From the NCBI GenBank assembly GCA_963971425.1, contig OZ020520.1, positions 28,923,535 through 28,987,534 on the forward strand: a DNA stretch of 64,000 bases, read 5' to 3'. Numbering within the stretch: position 1 is the stretch's first letter; each line of letters starts with the position of its first letter. Shown piece after piece: positions 971 through 61,095 of the stretch. Source of the DNA: Bryoerythrophyllum caledonicum. Lineage: Eukaryota > Streptophyta > Bryopsida > Pottiales > Pottiaceae. The notes under the pieces are model-generated. The model did no database searches, was not told the DNA's origin, and worked only from the letters and a program-made list of their open reading frames with translations. A program made the position numbers and the translations under genes.

Positions 971-1248
971 CTTATCCCCTTGTTCCTCCTAGCTAATACC
1001 TTTCCTTTTCCATTCTTTTTCATTTTTTCTTCTAATCTCATCTTATTCTTAACCTCTTGCTTTGTCCGCTTGGCCAGTGGATGTACATATCTAACACAAG
1101 ATAATACAACCGCATTAATAAAAATATTTGAAATAAATAAATAACATCACATATTAATATTGAAAAGACAAATATTAACTCACCTTCCCAATCCTTGGAC
1201 TATTCTGTATTCAAACTTAACCATTTCTCAAGCAAATTTGTCTTCAGC

Positions 1249-4055: not shown

Positions 4056-4342
4056 AAGAACCAAGTTAGCTATCAAGGTACATTGTGATCTTGTGTACAT
4101 CAATGTCATAATATTACACGTTCTTTCAAACACGAGAAATCTACGAGAAACAGTAGTAAATAACAATTCACACCTGGTTGACGAATTCCTCCTAGGTTGA
4201 GATGCTAAAAAATGCCCGTCTAGTTCACTCCGGGTTCAGAACCACGTACACACTATTCTACAATACTCTTAGAAATTAGACAACAACCAATGTTTTGCCA
4301 GCTTGAAGCATCTCTACTTGACCAAAGTAGCACCGATCTAGG

Positions 4343-4370
4343 TTTAGGGTTTAGGGTTTAGGGTTTAGGG
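4343..4370 (+). repeat. Interstitial telomere-type repeat (TTTAGGG)4
   Basis: Four perfect TTTAGGG units follow 'ctagg'. TTTAGGG is the usual land-plant telomere unit. Degenerate TTTAGGG-like text also fills 5218-5465 and 44085-44150. Confidence 0.85.
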
Positions 4371-5712: not shown

Positions 5713-5828
5713 CGGTCAACATATATATCAATCTTGGGCAAGTACCCACGACCATAGGCGCTCATCAACATCAACCCTGGAACCGTACGCTCTCTCATTG
5801 TACTATGCAAAAACCACTCAGCATACTC

Positions 5829-7492
5829 TTAAAAATCCTGGATAAGTGGGCGAACCTCTGGTGAATCTAACTCAGCACCATCATACGTATACTCTATTTG
5901 CAACTCGTCCAACCGCTCCAACCTCTGCTCTTCAGCGTGAACTGTATGCCTAGCCCACTCTCGTGCGTGTCGGAGGTGATACACCATAAACTTGTCACTC
6001 CATCCAATAGCCAGGCGAGCAAATGTGAGAGCACTCTGTACCTCGACAGATGGCGCATGCTTATCTCTGCCGTGAACTGTAGCTGCGAATGTTGCCACCA
6101 TCTCCTCATTGAGTGTCATAAATCCGACTATGGATAATGCTCTACTGCTAAAAGGCCCTCGCAATGCACCATGAATGCCACTAACGCTAAACAGATCATG
6201 CTCGCTACAAAGCCGACGTCCATCAATCACCATCTCTGTCTGAACAACAATCTCTATCCTGATGCCCAAGAGTCGGCTACTACGCTCATCATTTGTCATA
6301 GTAAACCATTTGTCTAATAAATCATGTAGCTGCTCTTATCTGTTACGTATAATGCGCATAGTACCAAGCATCTAATCTAGCATCTACTTCTGTATCACAA
6401 AGAAAATCTCGTGACACAGTGCCTAATAATCTTGACCCGAGCTATAAGCGGGTCAAAAACAGGCCTGAAATCCACAGATCCATAGTCCTCCTCATTGCAC
6501 ATCTCGTGCACGGTACCCTTTGTAAACCTCCTGGCCCGGCGTTGTGCATCACTGAACTTGAAGAACAACAATCTATTGATACTGTAACGAGTGCCGTAAT
6601 CAAATAGATTATTCTCCACTAGAACAGAAGAACCCATCTTTGCACGATATCGCTGTATAAACCGATCTAGCATTGGCTCCGCTCCTGGAATCTCCCACTT
6701 CATTCCAAATAATGAAACTCGCCATAGCCTGGCGCCCAAGGAATACAGCGCCTGTGACATCGCTAAAATCGGAACATTAACTTGGTTACGTGATAATGTA
6801 GAACTATCAGTAGTCATGGTCAATATCAAGCCAAGTACCTCCCGTAGCGTATCTACTAACTCCACCTTGAATGCATCTCTCTGATCTGTATCACTACCCG
6901 CAAACACCTTGACCACTATAGGATCAGAAATGACATGCAGCCAATCACTGAACTCCGGAAGATCTCGTACCTTCACCCTACGATTAGCCGGACGGGCCAT
7001 GATCCCAAACAAGTCCGGCAAATCCTCGGTAAACATCATAAAACAGGCTGCATCAAGATCCATGTTCACTAGATCATTGACACTCGGAAACTCCGCCTGA
7101 TCTATGTACGGACCAACAATATGAGGAAACTATAGCAGTTCCACTGGAGCTTGTTTGTCAAACGGATACCGATCGTACAAGCGTCTGAGAGTTGGCTCCT
7201 CACAAACTCAAGCAACTGGTGGGTTGTATAAAACATATCGTGGGCGTGAAGACACCGGTCGACACACTGGAGGAACTGGTGGTCGCGTTGGAACTGCTGA
7301 TCGTAGCGTAGCAGCAACAAATAGACTCATGCGAGTAGCTGATAAATCTTCATCCGAGTTGCCGAGATCTACAACGGAGAGTGTATGCCTAGCAGCAATA
7401 GGTGGACGCCTTCGAGCTACAGATGCATCCTCATCTGAGCTGTTGAGATCCACAATAGAGACTGAATGCTTAGCCGACATTCTGAGAAGCCT
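5829..7492 (-). pseudogene. Decayed unrecognised coding region, probably element-borne
   Basis: On the minus strand one frame runs from MSAKHSVSIVDLNSSDED (ATG near 7480) to 6395. It is interrupted only by a TGA at 7210-7208 and a TAG near 7131. Beyond 6395 a further open block (6299-5829, starting MTNDERSSRLLG) follows after a frame change and more stops. The N-terminus is acidic and proline/arginine-rich; the middle is globular (DLPEFSDWLHVISDPIVVKVF, FGMKWEIPGAEPMLDRFIQRY). I recognise no domain. Its position at the end of dispersed repeat R suggests a transposon protein rather than a host gene, but no catalytic triad is visible. Confidence 0.5.
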
Positions 7493-7703
7493 GCGATACA
7501 CAAAGAAAAAATATTAAAAATTATTTATAAACTACACTTCAACATTTTTATTGAACAAATATATTTTTAAAAAACCAAATACCTAAAATAATACTATGGT
7601 CTCTAATTTTCTAATTTTAGCATTAAAAATATAATGTTAAACACATGTGCACCAGATTTTTGAAGTAGAAGAAGAGTAGAAGATGTTAAAAATCTTCCAA
7701 TGC

Positions 7704-8181
7704 AACTATCGAAGGTGAACCTCTGGTTTGAATTTCGGTTCGGCACCTTAATGCCAAATAATTAATTGAAGTGAAAAAATGACATTCGTCATTCAAAATA
7801 ATAATAATGTGATTTTTGGCAAGAAGTCATAGACTACTGTATTTTACCTAAGAAGAAGAAGAAGAACGCCGGTCCCTGAAGGGGCCGGCATGAATAAAGT
7901 ATCTGTTCATTCCACCACTAAGACCATGCCCACCATATTTTACCTACTTTGATGTCTATGGGGATTGAACTCAAGACCTTGGGATTCCAAATCCAAGAGT
8001 TCATGCATGAGAAGCCATGAATGAAGACCTTTTCAAGCCTTAATCCCCTTTTATGTCTCTCAAAGCGACAAAATCTGTAAATATACATTTTCAATAAATT
8101 TGGCATTTTCAAAAAATTATTTTCCGCTTAATTCGGCATGAACTTTTCTAAATATTTAAAGCCAAACTAGAGGTTCACCTA
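7704..8181. mobile_element. MITE-like element with AGGTGAACCTCT terminal inverted repeats
   Basis: The left end reads AGGTGAACCTCTGGTTTG. The right end, reverse-complemented, reads AGGTGAACCTCTAGTTTG, followed by further matching sequence. The 478-bp interior holds a GAA microsatellite near 7849-7865, a small GC hairpin (gccggtccct...ggggccggc) and, on the minus strand, a tRNA-SINE-like B-box string (gagttcaatcccc). No coding capacity. The superfamily is unclear because no clean target duplication is visible. Confidence 0.6.
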
Positions 8182-8189
8182 CGGTATGT

Positions 8190-9880
8190 GCTAAGAAATT
8201 ATTAACAATACACTTCAAGTTTTGCATACATCAAACCCTTCTCATATTCTTTAAATTCAAAAATCCTTACGGTAGATGCAAAGGTTTCCATTTCCTTACC
8301 AAGAATTTTTTTTGGTTAATTTAGATGGACAAAAACTCAAATTTCTATCGAATTTAGAGCCAATTAAAGTTTTGCTACACTATTTGTTATATCTCACACT
8401 AAATTACTGCACTATTTGTATATGTTACAAACAAAAATTGTAACTTTTGAACTGTAAATTAGATTCCTACAATATTATGTCTATGGGAAGCTACTAGAAA
8501 GTTGCGCATTCAATAAAAAATCTCAAAAAATCATGCCTAAATTTGAAAACGTGGTACCCTACCAAAACTCATAATGTCCCCCAAGGGAACATAGGAAATT
8601 TAGGAGTTAATAGTAGTAAAATCCACCATATCTTTCTATTATTTACTCATTAATATCATCAATTATACCAATTCAAAAATGTGATTGAATTTTTTTTGAT
8701 ACTATAACAATCTCTTGTAATCAAACCTTGTAATTTAAATTTTAGGTGAAAATTAGCAAATAAAAACTAGACTTTTAAAAACAACATTTTTAGTATAGAT
8801 TTTGCTGCTTCATCAAATTTTTGGAATTTCAAAAGTTGTATTAGAGTTTTCTTGGAGGTGAAAGGGGATGATCTTGTATCTCACACTACTTTATCATCTT
8901 ATTTCATCGTCTTATTTCATGGTCTTATTTCACCACATGGAGAGAGTGACTAGACTTATAAAAGGTCTGCACCTGCTTGGTATGCTTCTTTTGACTCTTT
9001 AATTTTATTTCTATTTACATAAAGAATGTATTTTGTTCCAGTTCAAGGGTAAACTTTTCATGTCATGTAACTTACAACAAAGTCCGTGTAAGAGAACTAG
9101 ATGTCAACTCTTCAAGAACTTAGGGTACTATGCGGGAGCTTTAGATTGCGTTTAGTAGGGCCTCATAGCATTGATTGCCATGGATTTCACTGGTGCAAAA
9201 ATTGGAGCAAATTTTTTCTCATGCTTTCTTGCCATAAATGTCACCTTGCCTTTCTCTTTTCCCTCCTTCAGAAAGGACTACTAGTAAAACTCTATTATCT
9301 TGACACGTGTAGCGTGATTTAACTCATAAGGCCAATGAACTTTTATGGCCTATAAGAATCTAAGAGTCTTCTAGATCATGAAGAATGACATCTACGCAAT
9401 GGATACATTTCAGCACAAAAAATCTACAAACTCATTTCACAAATATCATTGTAGCTCGCAGATGCTTGCACTGGTTGCCGTGGCAATGGTCTCAATAGAT
9501 GCCCATCTTCCCCCACCTCGAAGTCATGGTCTATTTTTTCCTTCGAGGTCGCTTATAGCCAAAACAACCCATATATGATCGTTCCGCCTTAGAGGGTTAA
9601 ATATAAATGCTTCATTTGATGCCATTAGTTGCTTCATATTTTTTCAACCATTGATGGTTGAACAAATGTTATTAATTCTTTATACTTCACAATACTTTAA
9701 AATAAATGCCGTCAATGGTTGCATGCACCATCCTAAAGCCCTAGTGTAAAGAATATTGGATTTTTCATGCAATTGGTTCCTATGGGATGGATTTTGTGGA
9801 GGTCACTGTGGATGTGCTAGATGGCACAAGGAGGTTCTAGTTTATTACACAAGCCATTTTGTTCCCAGATTTTTTATGTG
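8190..9880. other. AT-rich intergenic stretch, no supported gene
   Basis: Short ORFs here (for example 9101-9322 and 9378-9578) show no domain, intron signal or codon bias. Around 8573-8610 a fragment 'cccccaagggaacataggaaatttaggagttaa' matches the end of repeat family X described at 14027. Confidence 0.6.
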
Positions 9881-9884
9881 AATT

Positions 9885-10294
9885 GGCACTTTCTGAACAT
9901 CCACTCCTTATCCAATTTCTTTGAGTATGCTACACCCTTTCTCAACCACTAGAAATTGGTGTACAAGGAGTTGATATCATGATCAACATGATGATATAAA
10001 ATTTAGACCTTGTGTAGTGCAAAACTTTGACACCAAGTGAAGTCAAAGTCTACTGATCCACTCAACGTAGGGATGAAAATGAACCATTTTCTCCACTTTA
10101 AACACTATAATCTTTCAATCCATGCAGTCAATGTGGATGAAGTTTTGTAAGTATGTTATGCATTGAGTTTTGAATGAGATCCCATGGTTAAAAAAAGAAA
10201 TACGGTTTAATGTTTCCTTCCTTACTCATTGCACTAAAATTAACAGTTTTGAAGCGTTGTTGGTGTCAAAATGTCAAGGAAATTTAGGGGTTAA
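9885..10294 (-). mobile_element. Repeat family X, partial copy ending at TTAA
   Basis: The order of blocks ('aattggtgtacaaggag', 'agaccttgtgtagtgcaaa', 'tttgaagcgttgttggtgtc') is the reverse complement of the copy at 14027-14685. It ends 'ggaaatttaggggTTAA'. Non-coding. Confidence 0.6.
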
Positions 10295-10439
10295 TCTCCT
10301 GAAATCCTAAATTTTCTTGAAAAAAATACATATCCAGAACATGGACTTAGATCACATGTTATCAGAGACTAGAACCTATCGTCTCAATAGCAACGTCCCT
10401 AGACAAAATAGAAAATCTAGAAGAAAGTGGGTTTTAGGG

Positions 10440-11577
10440 TTACATGTGTGTCCACGAAAAAGTGACATACTTTTTTTATCATTTTGAGGTGACCTTACCC
10501 TCCCATTTTTTATGGTTGTGATTCCGAATATGTAATAAAATTTAATTATGCTATCACGGTTTGGGAGATATAGATAGTTTGACTTTCCAAATTTGAGTTG
10601 ACTTTTTTGATTGGTGAGGTATTTGAACTTTTTGAAATGACGTACTCCCCCCGTTATAAGGTATTACAAGTCTATCGGTGTGCTTAGTTTAGTTAAGTAA
10701 TATACGGATTAAAGGTTATTGAGGGTTTTGTTGCTGCGCTAGGTTTAGAATTTAAGGTGTACTATTTATGGAATTTTAATATTTTGAAATAATGCACCCC
10801 TCCATTTTTGAGGGTTGTGATTCCGAAAACGTAATAAAATTTAATTATGCTATCACCGTTTGAAAGATATGATAGGGTTGACTTTTATTGACTTTTTTGG
10901 AGGGTTCACGTTTGTGTTTGGGTTTTTACCATCTTGTAGGGCCGAATGTGCTATTTCCAAATGGTATTACATTTGATGTTTGGACTTTGTATGAATGAGT
11001 TATGGATGGATGAAATTTGGTTTTTGATAACTTCATCCAATGATTTATCATACATATAGTGGAATATTATTAAGTAGGTTACCATTTTGGAATGCCATTT
11101 TAATTCTCTTGGACGTGAACAACTTTATTTAGATGAATTAATGTTTTTTACATGTGTCAATATGGATGGTGTGATATTTGGGTATTTGTATACAAAGTAT
11201 TATTTGTAATTGGAGTAGCGTGTGGTCTAGAGGCTAATGATAGGAGTTCAAAATAATATTGCATTCCTTTATTGGACCTTGTATGAATGAGATAATGATG
11301 GATGAAGTTGTAATATCAAAATTTCATCCATCTATAACATCTACTTTAAGTGTTGGATGAAAAAGTGTAAGATCATTTTGGAAATGGCATGGATGGTAGT
11401 TTAGGATGGTAAATTTTACAAGAACATTGCAACCATGGTGAAAATGTCAAACAAATGAAATGCAAATAATGTATGCATATATATAAGTGTAAATACAAAA
11501 TACAATGCTATCAAATAGAACGGACATGGTCTCTCCAATCGGCTCCGTAAAGGCCTATATAGTGACGAGCAACCCTA
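10440..11577. repeat. Dispersed repeat R, copy 2
   Basis: This copy is collinear with 4371-5712 from 'gttacatgtgtg' through 'gacatggtctctccaatcgg' and 'agtgacgagca'. The coding region found after copy 1 is absent here; a PIF-like MITE follows instead. Confidence 0.6.
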
Positions 11578-11582
11578 TGAGT

Positions 11583-11770
11583 AGAGTTGGCCATGATCAT
11601 GGCCTTTCAACTCTACCTTTGGACTTTCACACTACAAGGACCCAATTTCCACAAATTGTATATTTTAATATTTTTTCCAACTCCAAAACTCGGCCTCTTG
11701 ACATAGTTTGGCCTCTGATGAAGTTTGGTCTTTGGTCTAAGTGTGAATCGCCCCTCAGTACTTGTGCAAG
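11583..11770 (-). mobile_element. PIF/Harbinger-like MITE remnant
   Basis: Positions 11598-11705 are an inverted copy of 13540-13650. The end 'gtgtgaatcgcccc' resembles the PIF terminal repeat of the element at 18149-21510. No ORF. Confidence 0.45.
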
Positions 11771-12189
11771 TCATGTTGGCTGATTTGAGTATGCTACACA
11801 AAAGATGGTATTTTGTCTAACCGGACTATGAAATGCTATAATTAGTTTAGTTTTGAAGAATTTTTCTACTTGGAAAACAACTATCTATACTACTTATATA
11901 GGAGGTCCGGATTGTTGTAATTATAGTTGGTAATTATATTTATCAAGAGTCAAAATTTATAGCATTTATAAACTTAATAATGTAGTTGGTCTAGATTCCA
12001 TCAAATAGGTAAAAGATCCAAGGTTCTTTGGACGCCATTGAAAGGTGAAACTATATATTTCTGATTGACTGCTTTCAACATGCCTTTTTTTGCAATGAAT
12101 TTTGACAAAGTTTGATACGTTGCGTGTCGGGCCTTCTTATTAATAATTCGACATTTATAATTTTGTCCACATCTTAGGTTCATTACAAT

Positions 12190-12740
12190 ATTATTCAACT
12201 TAATCCCTAGGAGCAGCTCCACCAGACAAAAGCAGTCCAAGAAATATTCATGACCTTGCGCGCTTTCCAGGTGGAGTGGTCCATCCGCCGGTTGAACTTG
12301 GCGCCCCGGTCGAGCAGAGGCGCGGGGTTCTTTGCAAGGGCGACCATACATTATCACAGCCCATCATCTCTACTTGGCAATGGACACCTAATGTGAAGTC
12401 ACCATGTTTACTCAAGCAAGCATCCCTGACTGGCCGCTCTCACAAGGTTTGTCTATTCTAGCGTTTGCGTGCAAAGTTGCAGCGTTTACGTGCAGAGGCA
12501 TAGCATTTATTTGGGGTGTTTAATCGGGGTCGCTAGCTTGTGGGACTTCCTACATTCGGCATTGGGATTGATCTCCAAACAATCATGCCAACTGCTCCAC
12601 ACCCCTCCCACGTCTTCTGGCCATCATGGCCGGATTGCCGTCGAGAGTGGAGATGCTCTAAAGGACCACAATATGATTTTGGAAAATGAACTTCAAAACT
12701 ACCATTCATAGGCCAATATATCAAATTTACAAGTAATGAT
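12190..12740. other. Moderately GC-rich stretch, possible gene debris
   Basis: Positions 12190-12460 and 12500-12680 are less AT-rich than their surroundings and contain ORFs of 60-118 codons on both strands (for example 12001-12357 minus). None has a recognisable domain, and no splice-compatible model could be built. I see nothing else here. Confidence 0.3.
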
Positions 12741-27437: not shown

Positions 27438-30260
27438 ATGGATTGGTTGGACCATTATACGAACCAGAGCTCAGCGGATGTTGAAGAAAAGGCTTACCAC
27501 TTACAGATGTTACCATCTAAATTACCACCAGAGTACCCTACCATACCGAAGGTGACGTCCCAAGCGCCGAAGAAGTTGTCTCCTCAGAGTGCCGCGTCTT
27601 CGTCGACTAGGAACGGCGAGGCGCGACATTCAGGTGGTTCGGGTATCATGGCTTCTGTTGCGAGAAGCCACGGTTCCCCTTCTTTGGGTTTTGGCGCCAG
27701 CGATCCTGAAGGAAGCTACCTCTTCGCAGCTTTTGGCTTGAAATTAACCCTGAAGGAGTGTGGCAGATGCAAGATGATGGAACCACGCGCCGAGTTTATC
27801 CGCACAGGAGGTGGGTTCTTGTGTTATATCATGTTTACTCCCGTATTAATTAATGAACATGTTGTTTCATTCCGTCCAGGCTTCCCTTGAATTTCTGTTT
27901 TCAAGTGGAGGCTTCATCATTATGGATCATGCAATTCGCATGCCTGATGTCGTCTGTTTCTGATATTCACTCTGGTTACATATTGCCCTTGGCAGACTGT
28001 GGTCACGAGCACTGCAGGGGCTGTTGCGAAGCGCACGCGGACATGACGGTGTCATCGAGGAAGAGCTCGCAGATAGAATGCCCTCATGCGGACTGCCGTC
28101 ATGTGTTTGACATGAACAAGTGTCGTGCTTTGCTCTCGGAAGCGGGTTTCGACATTCTGAGACTTCGGCAACTGGAAGCTGCCACCCCCGCATTCAAACG
28201 GGTCTATTGCGCCTTCCCAGACTGTTCCGCCTTTATCCCGAATGAATCTGAAAGTCAGGGCAACGAGTCTGCGGCGTTGGACACTCGTATTGAGTGCCAT
28301 TCCTGCGGCCGTGGACTCTGTTTGCAATGCAGGGTTCCATGGGAAAGAGAGTGCGATGGTTGTACTGCTGTAGCGGCGCACAACACTTTTATGGGAACGA
28401 AAAGTGAGATTCTCCTCCTCTGGATTATAATTGCTTAGTCATCTTGTTTCTCATAATTGCCCCAACTTCCGTTTCGATGAGCTCCAGGCTGGTCCTCGGC
28501 TCCTGTTTCTTTGCTCAATGAATAAATGAATTTTTGTTTGGCTGGCAGATTGTGCTCATGAGTACTGCACCAACTGTTGCAAACACCATGCGGAGGGGGA
28601 GATCAAGAGGGGGGCCTGGCAGATAGAATGTCCCCATTCGAACTGCAGTCACAATTTCGACATTGTCCAGTTTGGGACTTTGCTGTCTGAGAAGGAATGC
28701 GAGATTCTAAACATCAGACAATTGGAGGCTGCTACCCCAATGTCGGAACGAGTCTATTGCCCCATCCAGGGTTGTGGTGACTTTGTACCATATCATGTCC
28801 GACCTGAAGGAGACGGTTCCGCATGCTCGGAAACGCGTATTGATTGTCATAGCTGCCACGGTGCCTTCTGTTTGGACTGCAACGTCCCGTGGAAGTTGCA
28901 CTGCGAAAAATGCGGGGAAATGAAACCACACAAGTTGTTCATAAGCACAAGCGGTGAGTTTTTGTGATTCATCTCTGTGAACCTTGTCCTAAACTTCATT
29001 CCGTGATGTTGTGTTTCAAGTGAAGCGAGCTGGTATATATTTCCAGAAGTTATCATCAATTTGAATCGCATTCTTGTCTCTCTTGTTTGGGTGGCAGAGT
29101 GTGCGCACAGGTACTGCACCGACTGTTGCAAACAGCATGCGGAGAGGAGGGTCCTGAGGGGGGATTTGGCCATAGAATGCCCTCATCCGAGCTGCCGTTG
29201 TGTATTTTCCATTGATCAGTGTATTAAGTTGCTCTCCCAGGCAAGTTTCAACATTCTTAACATGAAACAACTAGAAGCTGCCACTCCCGCTCCGGAAAGG
29301 ACCTATTGCCCCTTCTCAAGTTGTGGCGTCTTTGTACCGTCATTCAACTCGGGTAGCAGCAGTCTTTCTCCAGACGATGTGCTTGTTGTATGCTATTCAT
29401 GCAATGGAGGCTTTTGCCTCGATTGCAAAATTCCATGGCATGCAAACAAGACGTGTGCAGAATATCGTGCCCACGTTGAGAAGATTCAAAAGGAGAAGTA
29501 TCTGAAAGAACAAGCTCTGGTTGCCAAAAATGGATTTGAACGATTCGGTGAAGAGCAGGCATCCACCAGTGGTGGAATATGTCGTATCCCACTGCTACCT
29601 TCCTTAAATTTTCAGGGTTTGACTCCAGAAGAGTGCCACTTCCGATTGGCCGAGTCACAATTCTTCCGAATGTCTACCAACAGGAGCAGGAAGGTGAGAA
29701 CTCAAACCTTCTTGGAAGATAATCAAAGAAAAGGATCATGCAATTCATTGTATGCAGTAAGCTCTTTGGCATTTTTTTTGTGGCTCTTTCATTTTATCAT
29801 TTTATTGGTAATTTGATATCTTTGAGGTTGTGCACTGACTGACTCATCTATCATTGGGCCAATGTAGGTCATTAAAGTTGACTTCATAAAGAATGCTCAA
29901 CTTGAAGAAAAATTTAATAGAAAAAAAGAAGAATTTCGACAATCAAATGTATCAGTTGAGACACGACTTGTGTTCCATGGAACTGATGCAAACGCAATCG
30001 ATAAGATTGCAACTGAAGGCTTTAAAATTGGAGGTCAGGGTGTAACCATGAAATATGGAGCTTCTTATGGGCATGGTGTCTACACAGCTGTGAACCCGGA
30101 CGTATCAGTGACCTATTGTGGAGGGTCAAACATGATGCTATTCTCAATGGCAATCCCGGGTGAATTGAACAAGCATCATAACTATGGAGCAACTGCAGAT
30201 GTACTTGTGATTAGGGATGTAAACCAATTGCTACCAAGATATGTAGTTCACTACTCGTGA
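27438..30260 (+). CDS. Fusion of three RING1/IBR zinc modules with a C-terminal PARP catalytic domain
   Basis: Five exons with GT-AG introns: 27438-27810, 27996-28403, 28549-28953, 29098-29693, 29868-30260. They total 725 codons and stay in phase. Exon 1 (residues 1-124) is a Ser/Pro-rich leader ending in CGRC, the first zinc pair. Exons 2, 3 and 4 are homologous; each encodes CxHxxCxxC (CGHEHCRGCC, CAHEYCTNCC, CAHRYCTDCC), IECPHxxC, a linker LEAATP and an IBR-like part (VYCAFPDC, CHSCGRGLCLQC, PW). Exons 2 and 3 end with a new C-x2-C that supplies the first pair of the next module. No RING2 with its catalytic cysteine is seen. Exon 5 encodes a PARP fold: VETRLVFHGTD, SYGHGVYTAVNPD, LPRYVVHYS. 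Predicted role: mono-ADP-ribosyltransferase tethered to ubiquitin-ligase-type zinc modules. It converges on the hydrolase gene at 30879. Confidence 0.85.
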
Positions 30261-34879: not shown

Positions 34880-35786
34880 AATGTTCTCAAGGGACTACCG
34901 CGTTCTTCTGAGAGCACTGTGCAGACACTTTCGCACCTCGATCCAACAATGTCATTTGATAAACTAAGCGCAAATCTCCTGTTGGAGCAATTTAGGCGTG
35001 AGCATCGAAATGCATTACACGGCGAGGACGAGGCTTTGTCCGTAATAAACAAGCAACAAGGCGGAAGAGCAACAACTCAGTCCCACCATCAACGAAGCAG
35101 GGGTCGCTGGGGTCGAAACCCCCTTGGTGGCGGTTTTATTTAAGGCAACATGGGGTCAACATCAACAAGGACCACCAAGACGAGGCTACTCCGGTGGTAG
35201 AGGTGCTGCTTGGAGACCGACACTGCCAGGACCGTCAACAGGAACGAGCAGACCTCCAATGGTGTGCTACACGTGCGGTAAGCCCGGCCATATTGCCAGA
35301 AATTGTAGACATGCCCCTCCGCAGCCTGAGAGTAGTGATTACGCCGATGCAGCAGAGGTATTCGACGCACACTTTTATGATCAATACCCTCAATACGATT
35401 ACCCTGGTCCTTATTACCATCCTGGTGCTAGTCCATGGTACGTTGATAGTGGTGCAACATCTCATATTGCATCAGATGCCAACAAGCTAGATTATGCACC
35501 ACATTCTTCAGGCTTTGACAGTGATGTTAAGACAGGTGGAGGAGAATCCCACTCCGTGCAAGGAACAGGAACCTCCACCCTTCGTACCTCCACGGGAGAA
35601 ATAAAATTGGAGAATGTTTGTTATGTGCCGACCTTGAGGAAATATCTTGCTTCCGTTGGATCAATCGCTGACTTAGATCACACTGTAGTCTTTACAAAAT
35701 CGCTCTATTGGATTTACAAAGCTGACCAAGTAGTTGCAGTAGGTCATCGCGATCTTAGGAATGGGCTATACACCACGCACTTGTAG
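34868..35786 (+). pseudogene. copia gag remnant, zinc knuckle and protease
   Basis: The gag tail (VLKGLPRSSES, MSFDKLSANLLLEQFRREH) lies in one frame to about 35120 and continues in another. The CCHC knuckle CYTCGKPGHIARNC lies near 35262-35310. The aspartic protease active site WYVDSGATSHIA is near 35436, and the protease domain runs on to 35786. A frame change near 35120 separates the gag tail from the knuckle. Confidence 0.85.
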
Positions 35787-51209: not shown

Positions 51210-51399
51210 TTTGCAGACAGGGTTGTCATAACAGACGGGTTGAGGTGATCGGACGGGACAACCGGACGGGCGGTCCGGACGGCACGGACGGACGGTTCGG
51301 ACGGATTGCCCGAAGTGTGCCCAGTAATTTTTGGCAAGTAAGAAATTTTTACTGTGATCGCCACGTCACATACGGACGTGTCACGCCACCGTGGCACTA

Positions 51400-51552
51400 G
51401 GGCGGGGACGTCTCCATGAGGGGCGGGGACGTCACAATGAGGGGCGGGGACGTCTCCGCCCCTCCCGGGTAAGGGCGGGGACGTCTCCGCCCCACCAGGA
51501 CAGGGCGGAGACGTCCCCGGCCTTACTTGGGCAGGGGCTGGGACGTCTCCCC
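51400..51552. repeat. GACGTC palindrome array I (six units)
   Basis: Units of the type GGGGCGGGGACGTCTCCGCC recur every 25-33 bp. The array begins 182 bp inside the left end, mirroring array IV at the right end. GACGTC is also a core recognised by plant bZIP factors. Confidence 0.8.
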
Positions 51553-51786
51553 AACCCAGGAGAAGGAGGCCTTTGGGGCATTTTGGGTGCTTAGGCACTC
51601 CTCTCCATGAGGAGGGTGGAGGTTTTAATATAGGGTACCTTATTTTTGGTTCCGACAAGATTGCGACGCACTTAAAATTAGACGCAGGTTATGTCTACGA
51701 AGGAAGGCTTTCGGGAAAGTACTACTTTTGTCCTTTGACCGCATGCTCTCCAATAATGAACACCTTTATTAGCTCCCTAATAAACC

Positions 51787-52044
51787 AAGTAGTGGATAGC
51801 ATGGGAGCTATGCAAGTCCCCATCCATAACGGGTAGTGTACGCCTCTAGTAGAATGTAATGTGCAAGTTCTCTAAATATATAATTTAAACACAATTGGCC
51901 CACAAAAGATTAGGAATGTACCACATACCATGAAAGCAAAAAAATAGACCAAGTAGTGGATAGCATGGGAGCTATGCAAGTCCCCATCCATAACGGGTAG
52001 TGTAAGCCTCTAGTAGAATGTAATGTGCAAGTTCTCTAAATAAA
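51787..52044 (+). repeat. Direct duplication of about 90 bp
   Basis: ccaagtagtggatagcatgg and the following sequence to 'gcaagttctctaaata' occur at 51787-51880 and again at 51949-52044, nearly identical. A short part (tagcatgggagctatgcaag) is also found at 53768-53787. Confidence 0.8.
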
Positions 52045-52151
52045 TTGTACCATTATAAACAAAAAGGATATTTAAAACCATATAATGTTTAGAGCAAAAG
52101 TATTGTTCACAAAATTGATTTGCTACGTCCTAAACCTTTAAATACTCCTAG

Positions 52152-52829
52152 TCAATAGTAACGTTGGTGAAGGGCTCGTTCGGTCCTCCTCAGCCTACCA
52201 CGTGCTTGTGCCTTTTCGCTCGCGACTTGGACGTGGGTTCCGTCGGAGTCATCATCTGAACTTGACGTGTTAGTATCATAGCTAGGTGTGTCGTCCATCA
52301 CAGTCATGAACTTGCCCAATCCACCTTCCGGATACTTGCGCCATCCCATTGGAATTATTCCATTTTCAGGGCGAGGAATTTTTACCTTCCCCGGCATCGA
52401 CTTCAAAGTGGACCAATCCACTATCTTGCCCAACTTCACCTCCGCATGAACACCCCGCGCAATGAAGAGATTTACTTCGTTGCGTTTGACCAATGGGACG
52501 TCATACAATACCTGATAAACTTCGATGCATCGGTTTTTAAACGCCTCGTCGATGCAATGTTTCAAGTTTGCCTTGTGGAAGCGCCGGTGATAGTTGTGTC
52601 GCGCCTCTGGGAAAGCCTTGTCGATGTGGCACCACTCGATGTAGTTCGCGCAATCATCAAAACTCCATGGCTCCACTACGTCCTCCCAACCTCGAAAAGC
52701 CAACTTCTCGGGATTTCGAAGAACGTGCAACCGCTTCCGATGGGCGTTCCCCGCTCTTGCACGGGTCTTGTCACGCTCCTCCTTGGCCAATTGTCCGGAT
52801 GAAGACATGGTGTGCACGTGTGAATGCAA
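52152..52829 (-). pseudogene. Truncated copy of the RING/coiled-coil gene (N-terminal domain only)
   Basis: 225 codons (first ATG at 52829; the next, MSSSGQL, at 52805 may be used). The protein aligns along its length with residues 1 to about 220 of the larger gene at 54348-56516: RKRLHVLRNP.KLAFRGWE, CANYIEWCHIDKAFPE, RRFHKANLKHC, NEVNLF.ARGVHA and RYPEGGLGK-like segments. It stops before the coiled coil and RING finger. Upstream leader sequence and palindrome array II are also duplicated. It may be a stable short paralogue, but loss of the RING suggests a truncated duplicate. The Cys/His pattern is kept. Confidence 0.7.
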
Positions 52830-52956
52830 AATTCTGGCGTGGATGGATGAATGAGACCTCGCACAACGCCCACATCCAGCTCAATGAAGAGATGGTGGAT
52901 AGGAGTATGCGAGGTGGGGACAAATGAGGTCCCCCTCCATTAAAATAGTAATCCGG

Positions 52957-53036
52957 TGGGGGCGGAGACGTCCCCGCCCCTGCCGGGTATGGGGCGGAGA
53001 CGTCTCCGCCCCACCAGGGCAGGGCGGGGACGTTTG
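52957..53036. repeat. GACGTC palindrome array II (three units)
   Basis: Includes one perfect palindrome GGGGCGGAGACGTCTCCGCC(CC) and two imperfect units. It lies upstream of the truncated RING copy, in the same relative place as array III to the full-length gene. Confidence 0.8.
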
Positions 53037-53339
53037 CTTGTAAATTGGGGGGGGGTTTGTCCCCACAAAACTTTCCAAGGAGGCGTTTGAGGCCACTCTT
53101 GCTTGGCCGAGGCACTCCTCATCTCCATGAGGCGGGTGCACAATTAAATATGGGGTGATTTATTTTTGGTTCCGACAAGATCCTAATGCACTTAAAATAA
53201 CATGCAGATTATGTCTCTCCCTAGTTCTAGGGAGGAAGGCGAAATGGAAAGTACAACTCTTGTACTTTGACGGCATGCTCTCTAATAAGGAACACCTTTA
53301 TTAGCTCCCTATTAGTTTTGGAGCAAACATTAGAGTGTA

Positions 53340-53985
53340 GAAGATTATTTCCTTCCAAATTAAAAAAAAAATCCTTGTCTTTAGTGGAAAATAACGCTTC
53401 AACTCAAGTCAAAGATTTTCACATATTGCCAAAAATATAATGGGCAAGGTACCAAAAACAAAAACGTCTTACCACATAAAACTTAGAGATTTTAACTTTT
53501 TATACTTTTGATTTTTTCCACAACAATATGTGGTGTAGACCTTCATATTGACCATAAATATACATCAATCTAAAACATATCAAGTATCTAAAAACTAAAA
53601 CGTTACTTGCCCATTTTTTAGCTTCCACTACTAGCATAGTTGACTTGAATAAGGTACACCCTTTTTCTACCTCTAACAATTGGTGTATAAGGAACTAACA
53701 TCATCCTAAACTACCATTAGTAATGGATTTAGGCCTTATCTAGTGCAAAAATTTGATACCAAGCAGTGAATAGCATGGGAGCTATGCAAGCCTTTCAATC
53801 CGTGTGGTTAAAATTTATGAAATTTTGTGGGGACATTAACAAAGAAGTATTTATTGTGATCCTACGGTTAGATGTAGAAATAAAAAGGTTTTGTCTCCAT
53901 TCTTAGGCATTATACTATAGCCTCGTAGTTTTGAAGTGTTTTTGGTGCAAAAATGCCTTGGTCCTTTAGGGATTAAAAATGTTTG
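53340..53985 (-). mobile_element. Repeat family X copy inside the hAT-like unit
   Basis: It matches the 17188 copy ('attcttgtctttt', 'gggcaaggtaccaa', 'cacaacaatatgtggtgta') and ends 'ggtcctttagggaTTAA'. A piece is replaced by tagcatgggagctatgcaag, which also occurs twice near 51.8-52.0 kb. Confidence 0.55.
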
Positions 53986-54347
53986 GAGGTTTAAAACTTG
54001 GTCCACACCATTTTTTTTAATACAAACGCACAAATCCTTATGAGGCTTAAGTACATTTATAATCACATGGATTAACACCACTATTATCAAGTAGAATGTA
54101 GACAGTACTATTCATAAATTTTTTTAGTATCCATAATATAATACGAAAGTGGAAAAAATACATGAAACGCTAAAAGATGAAGCATTGTAAGAAAATTGTC
54201 TCTTGGCACCGCAAAAACAAAAAAATACACCTAGTCAATATTCATCGGGCTATTAGTAGTGCCACTCGCCCCTGCCTCGTTGTCGTGTGCCCCTACGTGC
54301 ATAGGGAGGTCTTCATCTGAGCCCAATTCAAGTCTACGAGACGCCGA

Positions 54348-56516
54348 TCATATTCTCCTCGCTGGTCCATCTTCATCCAACACGGCCCTTAGGATTTGGG
54401 ACTGCATGAGCTGGTCGAGCGCTTGCCGTGTCCCTGGACTGTGCACATCGAGCAAGAAGTCGATTCCGTCATTTCGGAAAATTTCTTTCCACTCTGATTC
54501 CGATAATTGTCTTAATTCTTGCGGGTCTGGTTGGTCAACGTCATGAGAAATGCGATCCCCGTTGTTGTCTGTGATGCGAATTCCGTCAACGGCCCACAAC
54601 CATTGCCGTGGATGAGGTCCGAAAAGAAATTGCTCCCCATTCTCGTCCCAATGGCCATTAAAGCATTGGTAGAAGAAATTTCGTTTTCCTTGACCGTATT
54701 TGTCCTTTAACGGGATCAAATTCTTGCACACCCGGACAATCTACTCCGGGTCCCTTTCCCAACCCCACTCGTTTGAGAGGTGCATCTTATCCAGCGAGTG
54801 CATCTTCAGTTTCCAGCTCCACACCAAATCTTTTCCCCACATATGTGATTGATCATGAGCGTTCGTCACATTGAACTCCCAATGCGGGGGCATGTATGGA
54901 ACTAATCCAAAAAGTTCGTACAATCGCTCGTGAACAGGGGCCTTGCACAATGAGCACCGCCGGCGTACGACCATCAAGCTAATCAAACAAAATGGATGGT
55001 ACAAGTGCTCACAAGTGCCTAGATGCATCCCACCTTCTGGACCAAATGGGTTTAGACAAATTGAGCAAGTCGTACCGTCGGATACGAAGCTCGAAGGTTG
55101 TGGCCACAATAACATTGATTTGCCCCGATGATCGAGGGTAGATGAAACCTCCTTTTTGAAATCCCATTTGTAACGGGACCAATCGATGGTTGTTTGCCCA
55201 CCAGCGGTTTTCACCATCGCCATTTCATCCATCTTGAAAAGATCATCTATGAGGGCCCACGATGTCAAACCAAACACCCTCTCCTGGTTGTTTTCGGTAT
55301 AGTTATTGTCGATTTTTTGGAATTCCGCCACCAATTGTCGGGACCGATCGACCGTGAATACGCATGCCAACTTCCATTGATAGTAATGTTCTACCAACAC
55401 ATCCAAGCGACTTTGTAGTCTTGAATTCTCTTCAAGCGCTTTAGCGAGCTCTTTGCCGCCGTCACCCCCCACACCCTTTTCTTTGTTGACCATAGCTTTG
55501 TCTGCGTTGATAAGGGCCTCATCAAACGACAATGAATCGTCTTGAGTTGACACGTGTACAAGCACTTCTTCCTCCCGTCGTGGATTCCGATCTTCTGTGG
55601 TCATTGTACTAGTTTGAAGGGCAAGTCGGAGCTCCTCCATATCACGTCGTTGCTGGTCAATAACAATGTTTTTATCATTGACATCAACTCTCAACTTGCG
55701 AACCTCATCGCGCAATGACAATAGTTCTGTTGTCTTCCCTTCCAATTGGTTCAACAAGGTTTGGATAGTGTTGGCAAAAATAGCACCAGTAGAGGCTTCT
55801 AAAGTTCGATCAACAACCGCGGGGGATTGTACCTGAGCCCCAACTTCATTAACAGTATTGTTAACGACTACGTTAACCGTTTGTTCCGCCCTCCTTCGTT
55901 TGGTGCGCGCTTGTGTCCTTTGGCTCCTTGTGATTGGAACGTGGGATCCGTCAGAGTCTGTATCCGTGTTTGAGGGATCGGTCTCGTACGTGTCGACCGG
56001 TTCAGTCTTCGCCATCGATTTGCCCAATCCGCCTTCTGGATACCTCCGTGTCCCCATTGAAATCAATCCATTCGCCGGAGAAGGAACTCTTATGCTATCT
56101 CCCATGGCTTTCAAGGTGGACCAATCCACCCTCTTGCCCAACTTTACCTTCGCATGGACACCTCGCGCAAGGAAGAGATTTACTTCGTTGCGTTTGATAT
56201 AAGGGATGTCGTACAAGACCTGGTATACTTCAATGCACCGATTTTTGAACGCCTCGTCGCTGCACTTCCATAAATTTGCCTTGTGAAAGCGTCGGTGATG
56301 ATTGTGTCGCTCCTCCGGGAAAGCCTTGTCGATATGGCACCACTCGATGAAGTTTGCGCAATCCTCGAAACTCCATGGCTCCGGAACTTCTTCCCAACCT
56401 CTAAAAGCCAATTTAACAGGATTCCGAAGCACATGCAACCTCTTCCGCTGCTTGTTTCTCGATCGTAGTCGACTCTTGTCTGGTTCTTCTTTATTCATTT
56501 TTACCGGCGTGGCCAT
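54348..56516 (-). CDS. RING-H2 protein with novel N-terminal domain and coiled coil, one in-frame stop
   Basis: Starting at ATG 56516, 591 codons lead to TAG at 54743-54741, after which the same frame stays open for about 130 more codons (VCKNLIPLKDKYGQGK to 54348). Order: a conserved Cys/His-rich domain (residues 20-170; CANFIEWCHIDKAFPE, RRFHKANLWKC), an acidic and basic linker (KRRRAEQ, possible nuclear signal), a coiled coil (about 245-305), and a RING-H2 finger (about 484-525; CSICLNPF, GTCEHLYHPFC, CSLC). The RING implies E2 binding and ubiquitin ligase activity; the target is unknown. TAG may be a true end or a nonsense change. It shares a promoter region with the divergent kinase gene; the N-terminal domain is duplicated at 52152-52829. 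Confidence 0.75.
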
Positions 56517-56647
56517 GGGTGGGGAAAATCTGAATAATATATGTGATGCGAATGGATGAAGTCCTCACATGACGCCTACAACCAACTCAATTAAGAGGTG
56601 GATGAAGAGGGAGTATGTGAGGCGGGGACAATTAGAGGTGTGCACGA

Positions 56648-56656
56648 TATTATATA
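56648..56656 (-). promoter_or_regulatory. TATA box for the RING gene
   Basis: TATATAATA on the minus strand, about 130 bp upstream of the ATG at 56516 and on the left side of palindrome array III. Confidence 0.5.
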
Positions 56657-56688
56657 GCCGGTAGACGAAGCACTGGTCTAGGGTCCCC

Positions 56689-56835
56689 GGGCAGGGGCGG
56701 GGACGTCTCCGCCCCTGCCCGTATGGGGCGGGGACGTCTCCGCCCCTTACCGGGCAGGGGCGGAGACGTCTCCGGCCTCTACTGGGCAGGGGCGGAGGCG
56801 TCCCCGCCCTGCCCAGGTAGGGCGGGGACGTCTTC
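56689..56835. repeat. GACGTC palindrome array III in a divergent promoter
   Basis: Five units in 147 bp, including GGGGCGGGGACGTCTCCGCC. The array lies between two outward-facing TATA boxes, so it could act as a shared upstream activating region. This role is inferred. Confidence 0.8.
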
Positions 56836-56855
56836 GCAAAAGGAACCCTACACCA

Positions 56856-56863
56856 TATAAATA
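56856..56863 (+). promoter_or_regulatory. TATA box for the kinase-like gene
   Basis: TATAAATA followed by GGGG, 190 bp before the ATG at 57054. Similar text ('ttaatataggg...ttatttttgg', 'attaaatatgggg...ttatttttgg') lies right of arrays I and II, suggesting that those are copies of the same promoter. Confidence 0.6.
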
Positions 56864-57053
56864 GGGGATTTTTTGTCCATATTCTCTGCCAAGTCCACTC
56901 CCTAGGCCTCACGTGTCAGTTCGCTTTGCGGCCTGAAAGTGAGTTTGGTGGGTGATCGGGTTTGGCCCATTTATTGTACCCAGACTCTTTGCGGTTTTTT
57001 TTTAAAACCATCAACTTGGAATTTCGACCACGGTAGGGAGTTGACAATCACAT

Positions 57054-58634
57054 ATGGCGGGAGAAGGAAGTAGGTCGATGGAGAAGCGCCCAGTATTTAT
57101 GGACTTGGATGATGTTGATGAGACGGTTCTTCCGTCCACCAACACGGAGTTGACTTCGGGATCATTGAATCCGTCGTCATCAAGCGGGAAGAAGCGGAAG
57201 AAGTCACCAAATCCGGATATGCCCCCGCACGAATACATGGTTGAATGTAGAGGGATTGCCGTCGAGTTTTACAACCCTCTGACGACAGGGGCGTTGACGA
57301 GGAACTATTTGATCCACAACAAAGAGGGATACCACAAGTTGATGATTGACATGCGACACGAATTAATGTCAAACCTTGATAAATCTGAGAAATTTAATAA
57401 TTTCTCAGATTATTGGTTGCATTTGGAGTGGTTGGACACACAAGTGACCGCACTGACCACCAATATCGTTGCGAACTGGTGTTACGTCACAGGGAAGAAG
57501 GAGGATGAGAGCACCTGGAACCTGGAGGAGCGCGCACTAGTGGCGAAGATGAGGATGATCCAGGGCTTCGTTCAACAATACTTTTCTTCCCGTAAGAAGA
57601 AACTAGCTCCTTGAAAAGCGACTATTGAGGAACAACTTTTGGATCACTACATTGGTGGAACTTTCAAGTGGCTTGAAAGTTGCGCTAAAGTGATTCCAAT
57701 GCCAGGGCAGAGCGCGGTGGGTGGCTATGGGGCTGTACGGAAGGTGATGATAACCAAATTGGAAAACATTCCAAGTTGGATTTACTTCGCCGGAAAGACT
57801 CTGACCAACACCAACGAGAGGAAGAAGCGCCGAAACATCATCAACGAGGCTGGAGGGTGTCCGGTAGTACATCCAGGGATCATTAGACTTGCGTACATCC
57901 ACCCGAAAACTATGGAAGGGTACACGCTCTGGTGGAATGGGGGATCTCTGGCTTCTTTTTGGTCCAAGTTTGACTCGAAAGTGGACGAAGCATTGCCATT
58001 TGAACGGATTGAGATGCATCCGAATACCGGGTTGTCAATCCAAGAGCTTCGGTGGGTAAAAACTTACCGCCAAAATCGAGTGAACCTCGCGCTATTATTG
58101 CTTGTTATTGTGGGAAAATGCCACGACGCAAATTATATACACAATGACATCTCTCCATCGAATGTTTTGCTCCACTTTGATGAGTGGAAATCCGATACGG
58201 TGTACATCGGAATTTGCGATTGGGGGCTTTCTAGTCGAGTTGTGGAGAATGAGCCATCAAGGTATGGTTTTCAATTCAAGGAGGAGCTTCAACAAGAGAG
58301 AGAGCGGCGACGGTTTGTGGCACCAGAACTGTTCTATAATTTTGGGCCGCAGGACTCCACCAACTCGCTTGAAGTCATGCAACGGTCACACCTCTACTCC
58401 AAGGCAGCAGATGCATTTGCGGTGGGTTGGATTTGTGAAAAAATTTGGAAAGAAGATTGGGACACTTCGTATTTCACCAGCAAAAACACGGAGCAATATG
58501 TAAACCTGAAGCTAAAACTTACAGCGTTGCAAAAACAACTGCTCGAAGAACGGTCTTCTGTACCAGATGTTTTAGACACATTAATGAAACCCCCCCACAA
58601 CTGGACTATGCCTTTATGTTGTTACCGACAATAG
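57054..58634 (+). CDS. Protein-kinase-like gene inside the hAT-like unit, one in-frame TGA
   Basis: ATG 57054 opens 186 codons to TGA at 57612-57614; the same frame continues without break to TAG at 58634, about 526 residues in all. The first part (MAGEGSRSMEKRPVFM, KKRKKSPNPD basic cluster, helical middle) is unrecognised. The kinase domain follows the stop: glycine loop GGYGAVRKV, candidate lysine in FAGKTL, HPGIIRLAYI, catalytic loop IHNDISPSNVL (HND where HRD is usual), CDWGLS (DWG for DFG), VAPELFYN and the F-helix Asp in AADAFAVGW. All core catalytic residues are present, so activity is possible if the TGA is bypassed or absent in other alleles. Substrate unknown. It is divergent from the RING gene. 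Confidence 0.75.
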
Positions 58635-59046
58635 TTTTTTGTTAATTAGCTGCATTAGTTTCGCATGTGGTGGTTAAATAGGCAATACGGCATCTTCGTA
58701 GAAGAATATGTGTAATTGGCAATTGCCATACGTCATATTTTAATCAAAATTGGATACGTCCAAATCTTAAATTCTAAATCCGAGATTTGCATTTGTTCAA
58801 GCACAAATAACAATTGATACACTATTGATACACTAAATGTGCACAAGTGAAAGAAATAAATTTATTATTTCTACACAAATTGATACATAGTGTAGTAAAT
58901 GGCATTTAGTGTCTGGTTATGTCACTACACTAAGTGCCTCATTTGCAATTGGTGTATGGGTTCACATTTAGTGTATACTACAGTAAACATAAATTTTAGT
59001 TTACCAACATAGTGTCAATAGTTAAACACTATTAACTAACTCATGA

Positions 59047-59132
59047 AGGGGCGGAGACGTCCCCGCCCTTGCACTAGTAGAGGCGGAGACGTCCCCGCCC
59101 CCACATGGGCAGGGCGTGGACGTCTCTGCCCC
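59047..59132. repeat. GACGTC palindrome array IV (three units)
   Basis: Units GGGGCGGAGACGTCCCCGCC and two variants lie about 196 bp inside the right end, matching the spacing of array I from the left end. Confidence 0.8.
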
Positions 59133-59421
59133 ACCTCCCTCTTGCCATTAGTCCCCGATCCTACTCAAACATGACCCTCTCCTACGTGGCAGCTATGTGG
59201 TGCCAACATGGCTGCCACGTCGCCTGTTTTTTACCTAGTGGGTAAGTCAACCCTTAGTTGACTTACCTGGACGGGCGAGAGCTCTACCGGACGGGCGTAC
59301 CGGACGTCCGTCCAGTATGACAACCCTGTTTGCAGATGAATTGGTTTGTTTCCCTCTTATGCACAGGAGTACATCTAGACTCAGGGCAAGATGGTGCTGC
59401 AGCCGATGGGTCGGTTGCTAC

Positions 59422-61087
59422 AGTGGTCAGCAGAAGTGTTCGGACAGTAATTACAATCTCAATTTAATAGTAACACTTGTCGAGTTTGGTAGGTAGGTGC
59501 TGATTTTTTCAGCTAATTATAACTAAAGAGCCACTTGTAAACTAGAAAGAGTACCATCATTCACATTGAGCCACTTGCATGGGCTGCAGTTCATGATGTG
59601 TCAATCATGGGTGTCCAATTCATTATGCACACAAGTTGTGCATCTGAAAAATCTTGAGAATCGACATGTATTTATGGAGACCTCTTGCATTTCAAGACAC
59701 ATTGTGATTGAATAAGATTGCTCTTGATTAGCTATGGCTCCTAGAAGGACTCTTGCTGAACGTAAGTTAGTTCTTCAGATGCATGAGAGAGGGAATTCGT
59801 ACTCCGAAATTTCAGCGGTTCTAGGCATCTCTCGAAGCACTTGCCATGCTATTGTGCGGAGGTTTACAATGAGAGGTCATTTGAGAGATGCTCCTTCACA
59901 AGGGAGACCTCGAATTCTTGATGAACGTGGTGATCGTGAGGTTGTAAGGTTGTTGAATGCACCATCTAATGGTACAGCTGCAGCAGTGGGTAGAGAAATG
60001 CGATCTCAAGGATTGGATTTGAGTGATGATACAATTAGAAGATGTCTTCAGAGGCAAGGATTGAGAGCACGAGTGAAAACTAAGAAGCCATTCTTGTCAA
60101 AGAAACACAAAGCACGTCGATATGCATGGGCAAAGAAGTGTAGGCATGCAAGTTGGATGGACTGGAGTTATGTGGTTTTTTCAGATGAGTCAAAATTCAA
60201 TTTGTTTGGCTCAGATGGGAGGCAGTATTGTTGGAGGAAGAGAGGAGAGCATCTTTTAGATCAGCATGTGCAACCTACTATCAAATTTGGAGGTGGAAAC
60301 ATTATGGTTTGGGGATGTATGACTTGGGAGGGAATTGGCAACCTTCGTCTTATAGAAGGAAACATGGATAAGTTTGTGTATTGTGAAATTTTGGAGATGG
60401 AGCTCATGAATACTATACACATGTATGATTTAGGAGAGGAGAATGTTATTTTTCAGCACGACAACGATCCCAAACATACTTCTAAGTATGTTACAGATTG
60501 GTTGTTAGCACAGAAGTTTCAACTAATTTGGCATCCGGCTCAATCTCCTGACTTGAATCCTATAGAACACCTTTGGAATGAAGTAGATCGTCGTATGAGA
60601 ATGTCAAAGAAGAAACCCACTAACAAGAAGGATTTGTGGGAGAAATTGCAAGAAATTTGGTATAGCATTGAGATTGATACCGTGAGGAAATTGATCATGT
60701 CTATGCCTGAGAGAGCTGCAGATGTTTATCAAGCAAAAGGTGGCTATACACGATGGTAGTCATTATGATTGTACATTCAAGTTTTTAGGTAGTCCTCATG
60801 ATTCTACATTCAAGTTTTTAGCTTGATTTTGTAGCTCATGGCTTTGTTTCCAATGTAAATAGATAACCACTTCACTTTTTGCATAAAGAATTGGACACCC
60901 ACATCATGTGTTTTATTTTTGATTGATTTCTTGATTGACATTTTTTATTATGAATGTTATGTTACATGTTTTTTGTAACTATGTGATTGTATGTTTAAAT
61001 TTTTACAACTTGAATGTGAGTTACGTAAGAAAACTAGCTCATATTGGAAGTGGAAGCGTCCTGTCCGAACACTTCTGCTGACCACTG
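59422..61087 (+). mobile_element. Tc1-type DNA transposon, apparently complete
   Basis: The terminal inverted repeats are 27 bp and identical (starting CAGTGGTCAGCAGAAG and ending TTCGGACAG inwards), at 59422-59448 and 61061-61087. The element is flanked by TA at 59420-59421 and 61088-61089, the Tc1/mariner target. Total length 1666 bp with one intact transposase gene. It lies 84 bp right of the hAT-like unit's target duplication. Confidence 0.93.
59734..60759 (+). CDS. Tc1-like transposase, DD34E
   Basis: 341 residues with no stop or frameshift; ATG at 59734 is the first in the frame after a stop. An N-terminal helix-turn-helix (AERKLVLQMHERGNSYSEI) is followed by the GRPR linker motif (residues 57-60) and a second HTH that bind the inverted repeats. 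The DDE catalytic triad is D151 (VVFSDESKF), D243 (FQHDNDPKHTSK) and E278 (SPDLNPIEHLWNE), with 34 residues between the last two. The enzyme cuts at the element ends and inserts at TA. Length is typical for Tc1 transposases. Plant mariner-like elements are usually DD39D, so this subtype is unexpected and may be acquired from another kingdom. No intron. Confidence 0.95.
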   Translation: MAPRRTLAERKLVLQMHERGNSYSEISAVLGISRSTCHAIVRRFTMRGHLRDAPSQGRPRILDERGDREVVRLLNAPSNGTAAAVGREMRSQGLDLSDDTIRRCLQRQGLRARVKTKKPFLSKKHKARRYAWAKKCRHASWMDWSYVVFSDESKFNLFGSDGRQYCWRKRGEHLLDQHVQPTIKFGGGNIMVWGCMTWEGIGNLRLIEGNMDKFVYCEILEMELMNTIHMYDLGEENVIFQHDNDPKHTSKYVTDWLLAQKFQLIWHPAQSPDLNPIEHLWNEVDRRMRMSKKKPTNKKDLWEKLQEIWYSIEIDTVRKLIMSMPERAADVYQAKGGYTRW

Positions 61088-61095
61088 TATATATG

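Follow-up and report, generated by a model that had tools for sequence, protein, structure and literature searches.

A four-gene hAT transposon of Bryoerythrophyllum caledonicum carrying RING-H2 and protein kinase genes, and a candidate regulatory role for its GACGTC-motif arrays

Introduction

How does a piece of moss DNA bounded by the ends of a hAT transposon come to hold a RING gene and a protein kinase gene but no transposase gene, and what might these genes do for the element that carries them? The question is raised by an 8.1-kb unit at positions 51218–59328 of a 64,000-nucleotide stretch of the Bryoerythrophyllum caledonicum genome (assembly GCA_963971425.1, contig OZ020520.1, positions 28,923,535 to 28,987,534, forward strand), which is called the window below. 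Most DNA transposons are thought to need just a transposase, and most hATs encode a transposase alone. We found that the window copy is a non-autonomous, internally deleted derivative of a full-length hAT, and that the RING and kinase genes are genes of this full-length element and not captured cargo.

Results

The full-length element carries four genes

The window unit is bounded by perfect inverted 13-mers, of which the window contains no further copy. When inverted repeats of at least 9 bp with an 8-bp duplication were sought at a spacing of 300–20,000 bp, these ends were the sole pair in the window, and the same search on 60 dinucleotide shuffles gave four pairs in total, all with 9-bp repeats and nothing longer. 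The sequence check and the shuffles thus confirmed the perfect 13-bp ends and the perfect 8-bp duplication that a sequence-only reading of the window had described. An 8-bp target site duplication (TSD) and a short terminal inverted repeat (TIR) of the CAGGG type are hallmarks of hAT elements, and the family shows both.

In the 437-Mb host genome the TIR 13-mer was present 381 times in the forward and 417 times in the reverse orientation (798 occurrences), against one of each for the reversed control. Among the TIR places listed for C1, the first 100 gave 29 neighbouring inward pairs, nine of which were fetched, by length. Six of the fetched copies, 12,021–12,638 bp long, contained kinase, RING, RING-N (a short paralogue of the RING gene) and hAT transposase genes, in identical order in all six. 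The full element of 12.0–12.6 kb consists of TIR, motif array, kinase (−), array, RING (+), array, RING-N (+), array, hAT transposase (+), array and TIR. Since six 12-kb copies hold RING and kinase together with the transposase, these are integral element genes. We consider the anatomy of a four-gene hAT, with the window copy as its deletion derivative, to be very nearly certain.

The fourth gene was scanned in two copies, and its best matches were 1.8e-33 to DUF659 (PF04937; copy E26.6) and 3e-6 to PF05699 (copy E5.5); the transposase region of the other four 12-kb copies showed 91.6–94.6% DNA identity to that of E26.6. At the transposase N-terminus of E26.6 and E5.5, Pfam gave no BED zinc finger at E ≤ 0.01, and a C-x2-C plus H stretch was noticed by eye in E5.5.

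With the window copy included, seven of ten elements carried both RING and kinase. The sequence-only reading had named as support further copies at different sites that share the ends and the genes, and such copies were found; its expectation that each would have its own 8-bp duplication was borne out in part, the TSD being perfect in six of the ten elements, matching at 7/8 positions in one and at 6/8 in another, and lacking in two. Among the three shorter fetched pairs, that of 3.7 kb held a RING fragment, and those of 6.3 and 9.9 kb held neither RING nor kinase. The latter two (E6.8, 6,270 bp, L021; E35.5, 9,873 bp, L023 and L024) are TIR pairs with motif sites and without a matching TSD, and are either chance pairings of the ends of different copies or other derivatives.

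The window copy has lost the transposase

A six-frame Pfam scan of the 8.1-kb element detected no transposase, in agreement with the earlier statement that none was visible; it returned Pkinase, RING models that did not reach their gathering scores and a few other matches below threshold. When reoriented, the window copy was 96.6% identical to E5.5 over positions 1–7887, after which the alignment jumped from approximately 7980 to 12385–12638, so that the window copy is short of about 4.4–4.5 kb relative to E5.5, the transposase included. The deletion junction lies within approximately 51442–51493, where the two blocks that align with E5.5 overlap, inside the left GACGTC array. As both flanks of the junction are the same type of array, the deletion is likely to have arisen between arrays. 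The description of the unit as a non-autonomous hAT-type copy with long genes therefore holds for the window copy and fails for the family, since the transposase is present in the six 12-kb copies.

The RING, kinase and RING-N genes

The RING open reading frame (ORF) as first read covered 54741–56516 on the minus strand, and the full-length frame extends to 54234 with two in-frame stops. This frame aligned with the relative P0001 through to the end of the latter, with 66% identity over 763 columns. The RING-H2 ligands are intact (C-x2-C-x14-C-x-H-x2-H-x2-C-x10-C-x2-C, the canonical C3H2C3 spacing). The window RING protein scored below the Pfam gathering score; 21 of 31 members had zf-RING_2 at E ≤ 0.01.

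The kinase ORFs at 57054–57614 and 57639–58634 (plus strand) are parts of one 525-codon gene, which aligned gap-free with the relative P0030 over 525 residues (67% identity) with one in-frame stop. The catalytic motifs of a eukaryotic protein kinase are intact (GGYGAV, FAGK, HNDISPSN, DWG and APE), Pkinase (PF00069) was found in 30 of 32 kinase members, and the protein is Ser/Thr-kinase-like, the best PDB matches being weak ones to VRK1.

RING-N is paralogous to the N-terminal part, the N-domain, of the RING protein. The sequence-only reading had listed a RING gene, a kinase gene and a duplicate; the ORFs are real, and the 'duplicate' proved to be a separate, conserved short gene. RING-N was found in all seven elements, with stops in three and uninterrupted in four, and between RING-N and the RING N-domain of copy E26.6 the nonsynonymous (dN) and synonymous (dS) divergences were 0.245 and 1.098 (ratio approximately 0.22), indicating that the short gene has been retained since an old duplication. 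A degenerate RING duplicate was ruled out by this presence, integrity and conservation. The Pfam match of the RING-N domain to MmlI was rejected as chance, because it fell below the cut-off and reached E ≤ 0.01 in one of 31 members.

The gene pair recurs, with dN/dS below 1

Of 3487 candidate genome places for RING, the best 59, the window copy among them, were scored; all were full length and 17 were stop-free. For the kinase part, the best 121 of 2116 candidates, again with the window copy, were scored, and all matched with 90–100% identity. The kinase lay divergently upstream in all of the 30 best-scoring RING loci, a set that takes in the window copy as well as two fetched elements, and at least 39 of the 59 RING places had a kinase when compared with the upper part of the 121 kinase places. 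Of the 15 kinase places listed for C1 below 38.6 Mb, 13 had an exact TIR at one or both of the expected ends (chance about 1% per place). A RING/kinase pair without element ends was not found in this partial look, the other two places being unexamined. The possibility that a host gene pair had chanced to lie between two ends was rejected, as the pair recurs in many TIR-bounded copies.

The median pairwise dN/dS of the seven elements (six for the transposase) was 0.53 for RING, 0.39 for RING-N, 0.56 for the transposase and 0.47 for each kinase part, and among the 30 loci it was 0.44 for RING and 0.52 for the kinase N-part, all of these values being plain medians over mixed living and dead copies. 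Pieces from tblastn with less than 80% identity were excluded (518 of 754 RING codons of E27.6 and 32 kinase codons of E34.5), as were pairs with dS ≤ 0.01 (31 of 435 kinase pairs among the 30 loci).

Motif arrays at the ends and before the genes

With one mismatch allowed, the motif GGRGACGTCYCC occurred 14 times in the window element and nowhere else in the window. Across the seven elements its sites were located near both ends, in the kinase–RING gap, before RING-N and, in the six full-length copies, before the transposase; four copies had an extra site within the transposase region. The spacing between neighbours within clusters was 29–33 bp in 59 of 76 cases. As many as 73 of the 76 spacings, including 16 of the 17 outside the 29–33-bp range, deviated by no more than 2 bp from a multiple of 10.5. 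The reversed control pattern occurred twice overall, both times in E5.5.

A related RING gene with a similar array and hAT end

Protein searches, of which those for RING relatives scored approximately 8000 candidates, returned 29 RING and 30 kinase relatives and then 82 through a RING profile. Most were unnamed and of metagenome type, and one was filed under a Bacilli metagenome-assembled genome (MAG). All 89 window matches obtained by tblastn with the first 59 relatives were within the element. No relative was confirmed among IMG/VR viral contigs, plasmids gave no match for the element DNA or P0001, and phages gave none for P0030. Prokaryote genome contigs yielded no kinase relative and one RING contig, L055 (CADCWO010000051.1), which is filed as a cyanobacterial MAG and is probably a eukaryotic contaminant contig.

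L055 contains an 801-aa RING gene whose product is 39% identical to P0001. Upstream of it are seven copies of GGAGACGTCCGCGCCCC in 21-bp steps, one of them with a changed core; compared by eye, GGAGACGTCCGCGCCCC and the GGAGACGTCTCCGCCCC of the window agree at all but 2 of 17 bases. The array periods, 21 bp in L055 and approximately 31.5 bp in the window, are both whole helical turns. Downstream of the gene are a smaller array, CCGTCC repeats and an end, CAGGGTTGTCAAA, that agrees with 12 of 13 bases of the window end.

The 11-mer CAGGGTTGTCA was present at seven places in the L055 genome record (control, one) and by itself proves little. The copy on L055 is distinguished by the 13-base match, the adjoining CCGTCC repeats and the RING gene; when two short words were counted around the other six places, GGACGG/CCGTCC was found once or twice at each and GAGACGTC not at all. 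Inverted arms of 30 and 48 bp (816–910 and 4832–4906, 93–96%) were considered as TIRs of L055 and rejected, because the hAT end, at 4829, is placed immediately inward of them. The arms are hence flanking repeats, which would fit an insertion of the element close to an inverted repeat of the host. As L055 holds a RING gene, a motif array and a hAT end, this trio stays together over deep divergence.

Coordinates and other features of the window

Table 1. Features of the window copy, in window coordinates
Feature	Position	Strand	Remarks
Left target site duplication	51210..51217		TTTGCAGA
Left terminal inverted repeat	51218..51230	+	CAGGGTTGTCATA; perfect 13-bp
Left subterminal GGACGG repeats	51251..51304	+	GGACGG at 51251, 51264, 51277, 51286, 51290, 51299; L055 end similar
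Left GACGTC-motif array	51404..51555		Hybrid of transposase-promoter and terminal arrays
RING-N gene	52152..52808 (ORF 52152-52829)	-	218 aa; without RING domain; stop-free in window copy
Motif array upstream of RING-N	52959..53033		
RING-H2 gene	54234..56516	-	761 codons; in-frame stops 54741-54743, 54348-54350; RING-H2 residues 484-524
Central motif array	56694..56838		Between divergent RING and kinase genes
Protein kinase gene	57054..58634	+	525 codons; one in-frame stop 57612-57614
Right subterminal motif array	59048..59132		
Right subterminal GGACGG/CCGTCC repeats	59269..59313		59269, 59289, 59308
Right terminal inverted repeat	59316..59328	-	TATGACAACCCTG; perfect 13-bp
Right target site duplication	59329..59336		TTTGCAGA

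A Tc1/mariner element at 59419–61089 lies approximately 90 bp to the right. It has perfect 29-bp inverted ends (TA first) and an uninterrupted 341-aa transposase (PF01498, PF13358), and on account of both is probably young; such an element is unusual in a land plant. Two adjoining ORFs at 27887–29816 showed RBR-like RING/IBR cysteine patterns by eye and are perhaps a tandemly duplicated host gene. The ORF at 35124–35786, in which a CCHC knuckle and a DSGA motif were seen by eye, is gag/protease-like and probably part of a Copia-type retrotransposon. Legume-lectin and F-box domains also occur in the window.

Discussion

The reading that best accommodates these results is that of a multi-gene hAT whose RING and kinase proteins regulate the element through its arrays, to which we assign a probability of roughly 0.6. 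Transposase supplied in trans by other copies would mobilize the window copy, or would once have done so. For the RING protein and the short form RING-N, the phased GGRGACGTCYCC arrays that lie at the ends and precede every gene may be the binding sites, and RING-N would be a competing short regulator; the RING-H2 domain and the kinase would then modify proteins on the element chromatin (host silencing factors or the transposase), and this modification would keep the element promoters open, or the element expressed, in the manner of VANC of VANDAL elements. The array-binding regulator part of this mechanism is put forward tentatively, at somewhat less than even odds. We are more guarded still about a hAT-borne ubiquitylation/phosphorylation module in which RING and its short form, on helically phased element-only arrays and together with the kinase, might remove or block host silencing and have persisted through deep time in at least two organisms.

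By its 8-bp TSD, short TIR starting with CAGGG, DUF659 and hAT dimerization domains and short subterminal repeats, the element resembles the hAT superfamily (Ac/Tam3/hobo type), from which it differs in having three additional genes and motif arrays near both ends and between genes. The nearest tested precedent for the proposed regulation is VANC of VANDAL. According to PMC10398659, VANC proteins were shown experimentally to bind tandem repeats of a short motif in the noncoding parts of their own element and to remove silencing. Going by the description there, both systems have element-specific short-motif tandem repeats in noncoding regions and dedicated accessory proteins, but the transposase is of the MULE type in VANDAL and of the hAT type here, where anti-silencing is a hypothesis (PMC10398659). 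Two further comparisons come from PMC12730594. The fungal hAT7 elements carry a TET/JBP dioxygenase gene and have a 7-bp TSD; they too are hATs whose accessory gene has a presumed anti-silencing role, and they differ in the TSD length, in their fungal host and in having a dioxygenase instead of RING and kinase. IS3EU elements carry an alpha-kinase gene opposite to the transposase and so share with the present element a kinase gene antisense to the transposase within a DNA transposon, but they are fungal, their transposase belongs to another superfamily, and the kinase is an alpha-kinase and not Pkinase (PF00069) (PMC12730594). In titles and abstracts of open-licence papers, a scope outside which subscription papers and Repbase reports lie, we found no description of a hAT with RING and kinase genes.

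The arrays could instead be promoters read by host bZIP factors that bind ACGT cores, with RING and kinase acting elsewhere, for example on host silencing, cell-cycle or repair proteins. In favour of this, GACGTC is a classic plant bZIP site, the sites occupy promoter positions, and the kinase is Ser/Thr-kinase-like with weak best PDB matches to VRK1. The arrays are, however, also found near both ends, and nearly the same motif precedes the RING gene of L055, which is only 39% identical to P0001; we regard this alternative as unlikely. It is improbable that the window copy is one member of a Ds-like deletion subfamily which proliferates with RING and kinase but without the transposase. TIR pairs shorter than 12 kb do exist among the 29 listed pairs (3.7, 6.3, 9.9, 10.5 and 11.1 kb), but none of the three that were fetched carried both genes. 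The probability is lower again that the arrays serve transposition, being bound by the transposase or accessory proteins and pairing the ends as the subterminal repeats of other elements do: their position near both ends and the GGACGG subterminal repeats outside them would fit, but sites also occur between interior genes, far from the ends. Finally, a Pack-type non-autonomous family that captured and now spreads a host RING/kinase pair, close to the cargo-bearing family of the sequence-only reading, finds a parallel in the transposase-less window copy but is largely refuted, since the family is neither transposase-free nor built on host-captured genes: six 12-kb copies carry the identical genes beside a hAT transposase, none of the 30 RING loci is without the kinase, and a related RING gene adjoins a nearly identical hAT end in another organism.

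Several observations weigh against regulation of the element by its own RING and kinase proteins. In none of the seven elements that carry the gene set are all four genes stop-free, so that a fully intact, autonomous copy was not seen. The window RING and kinase genes are interrupted by stops, and this copy therefore probably makes at best a shortened RING protein and no working kinase. No DNA-binding fold was recognized in the RING-N domain. The 'arrays' are mostly clusters but in some copies consist of one site, the seven elements share descent, so their spacings are not independent counts, and much of the phasing could be plain tandem duplication of a 31–32-bp unit. As GACGTC is a plain bZIP site, host factors could read the arrays. 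On L055, only one hAT end is present, and no kinase was found in the 1.9 kb upstream of the RING gene or in the genome record.

Three regulatory-looking genes besides the transposase are unusual for hATs. The window copy suggests how transposase-less copies that still hold the other genes may originate, namely by deletion between arrays. A high-copy hAT that keeps RING, a short paralogue of it, a kinase and motif arrays offers a testable case of an element that may regulate itself or host silencing through ubiquitylation and phosphorylation.

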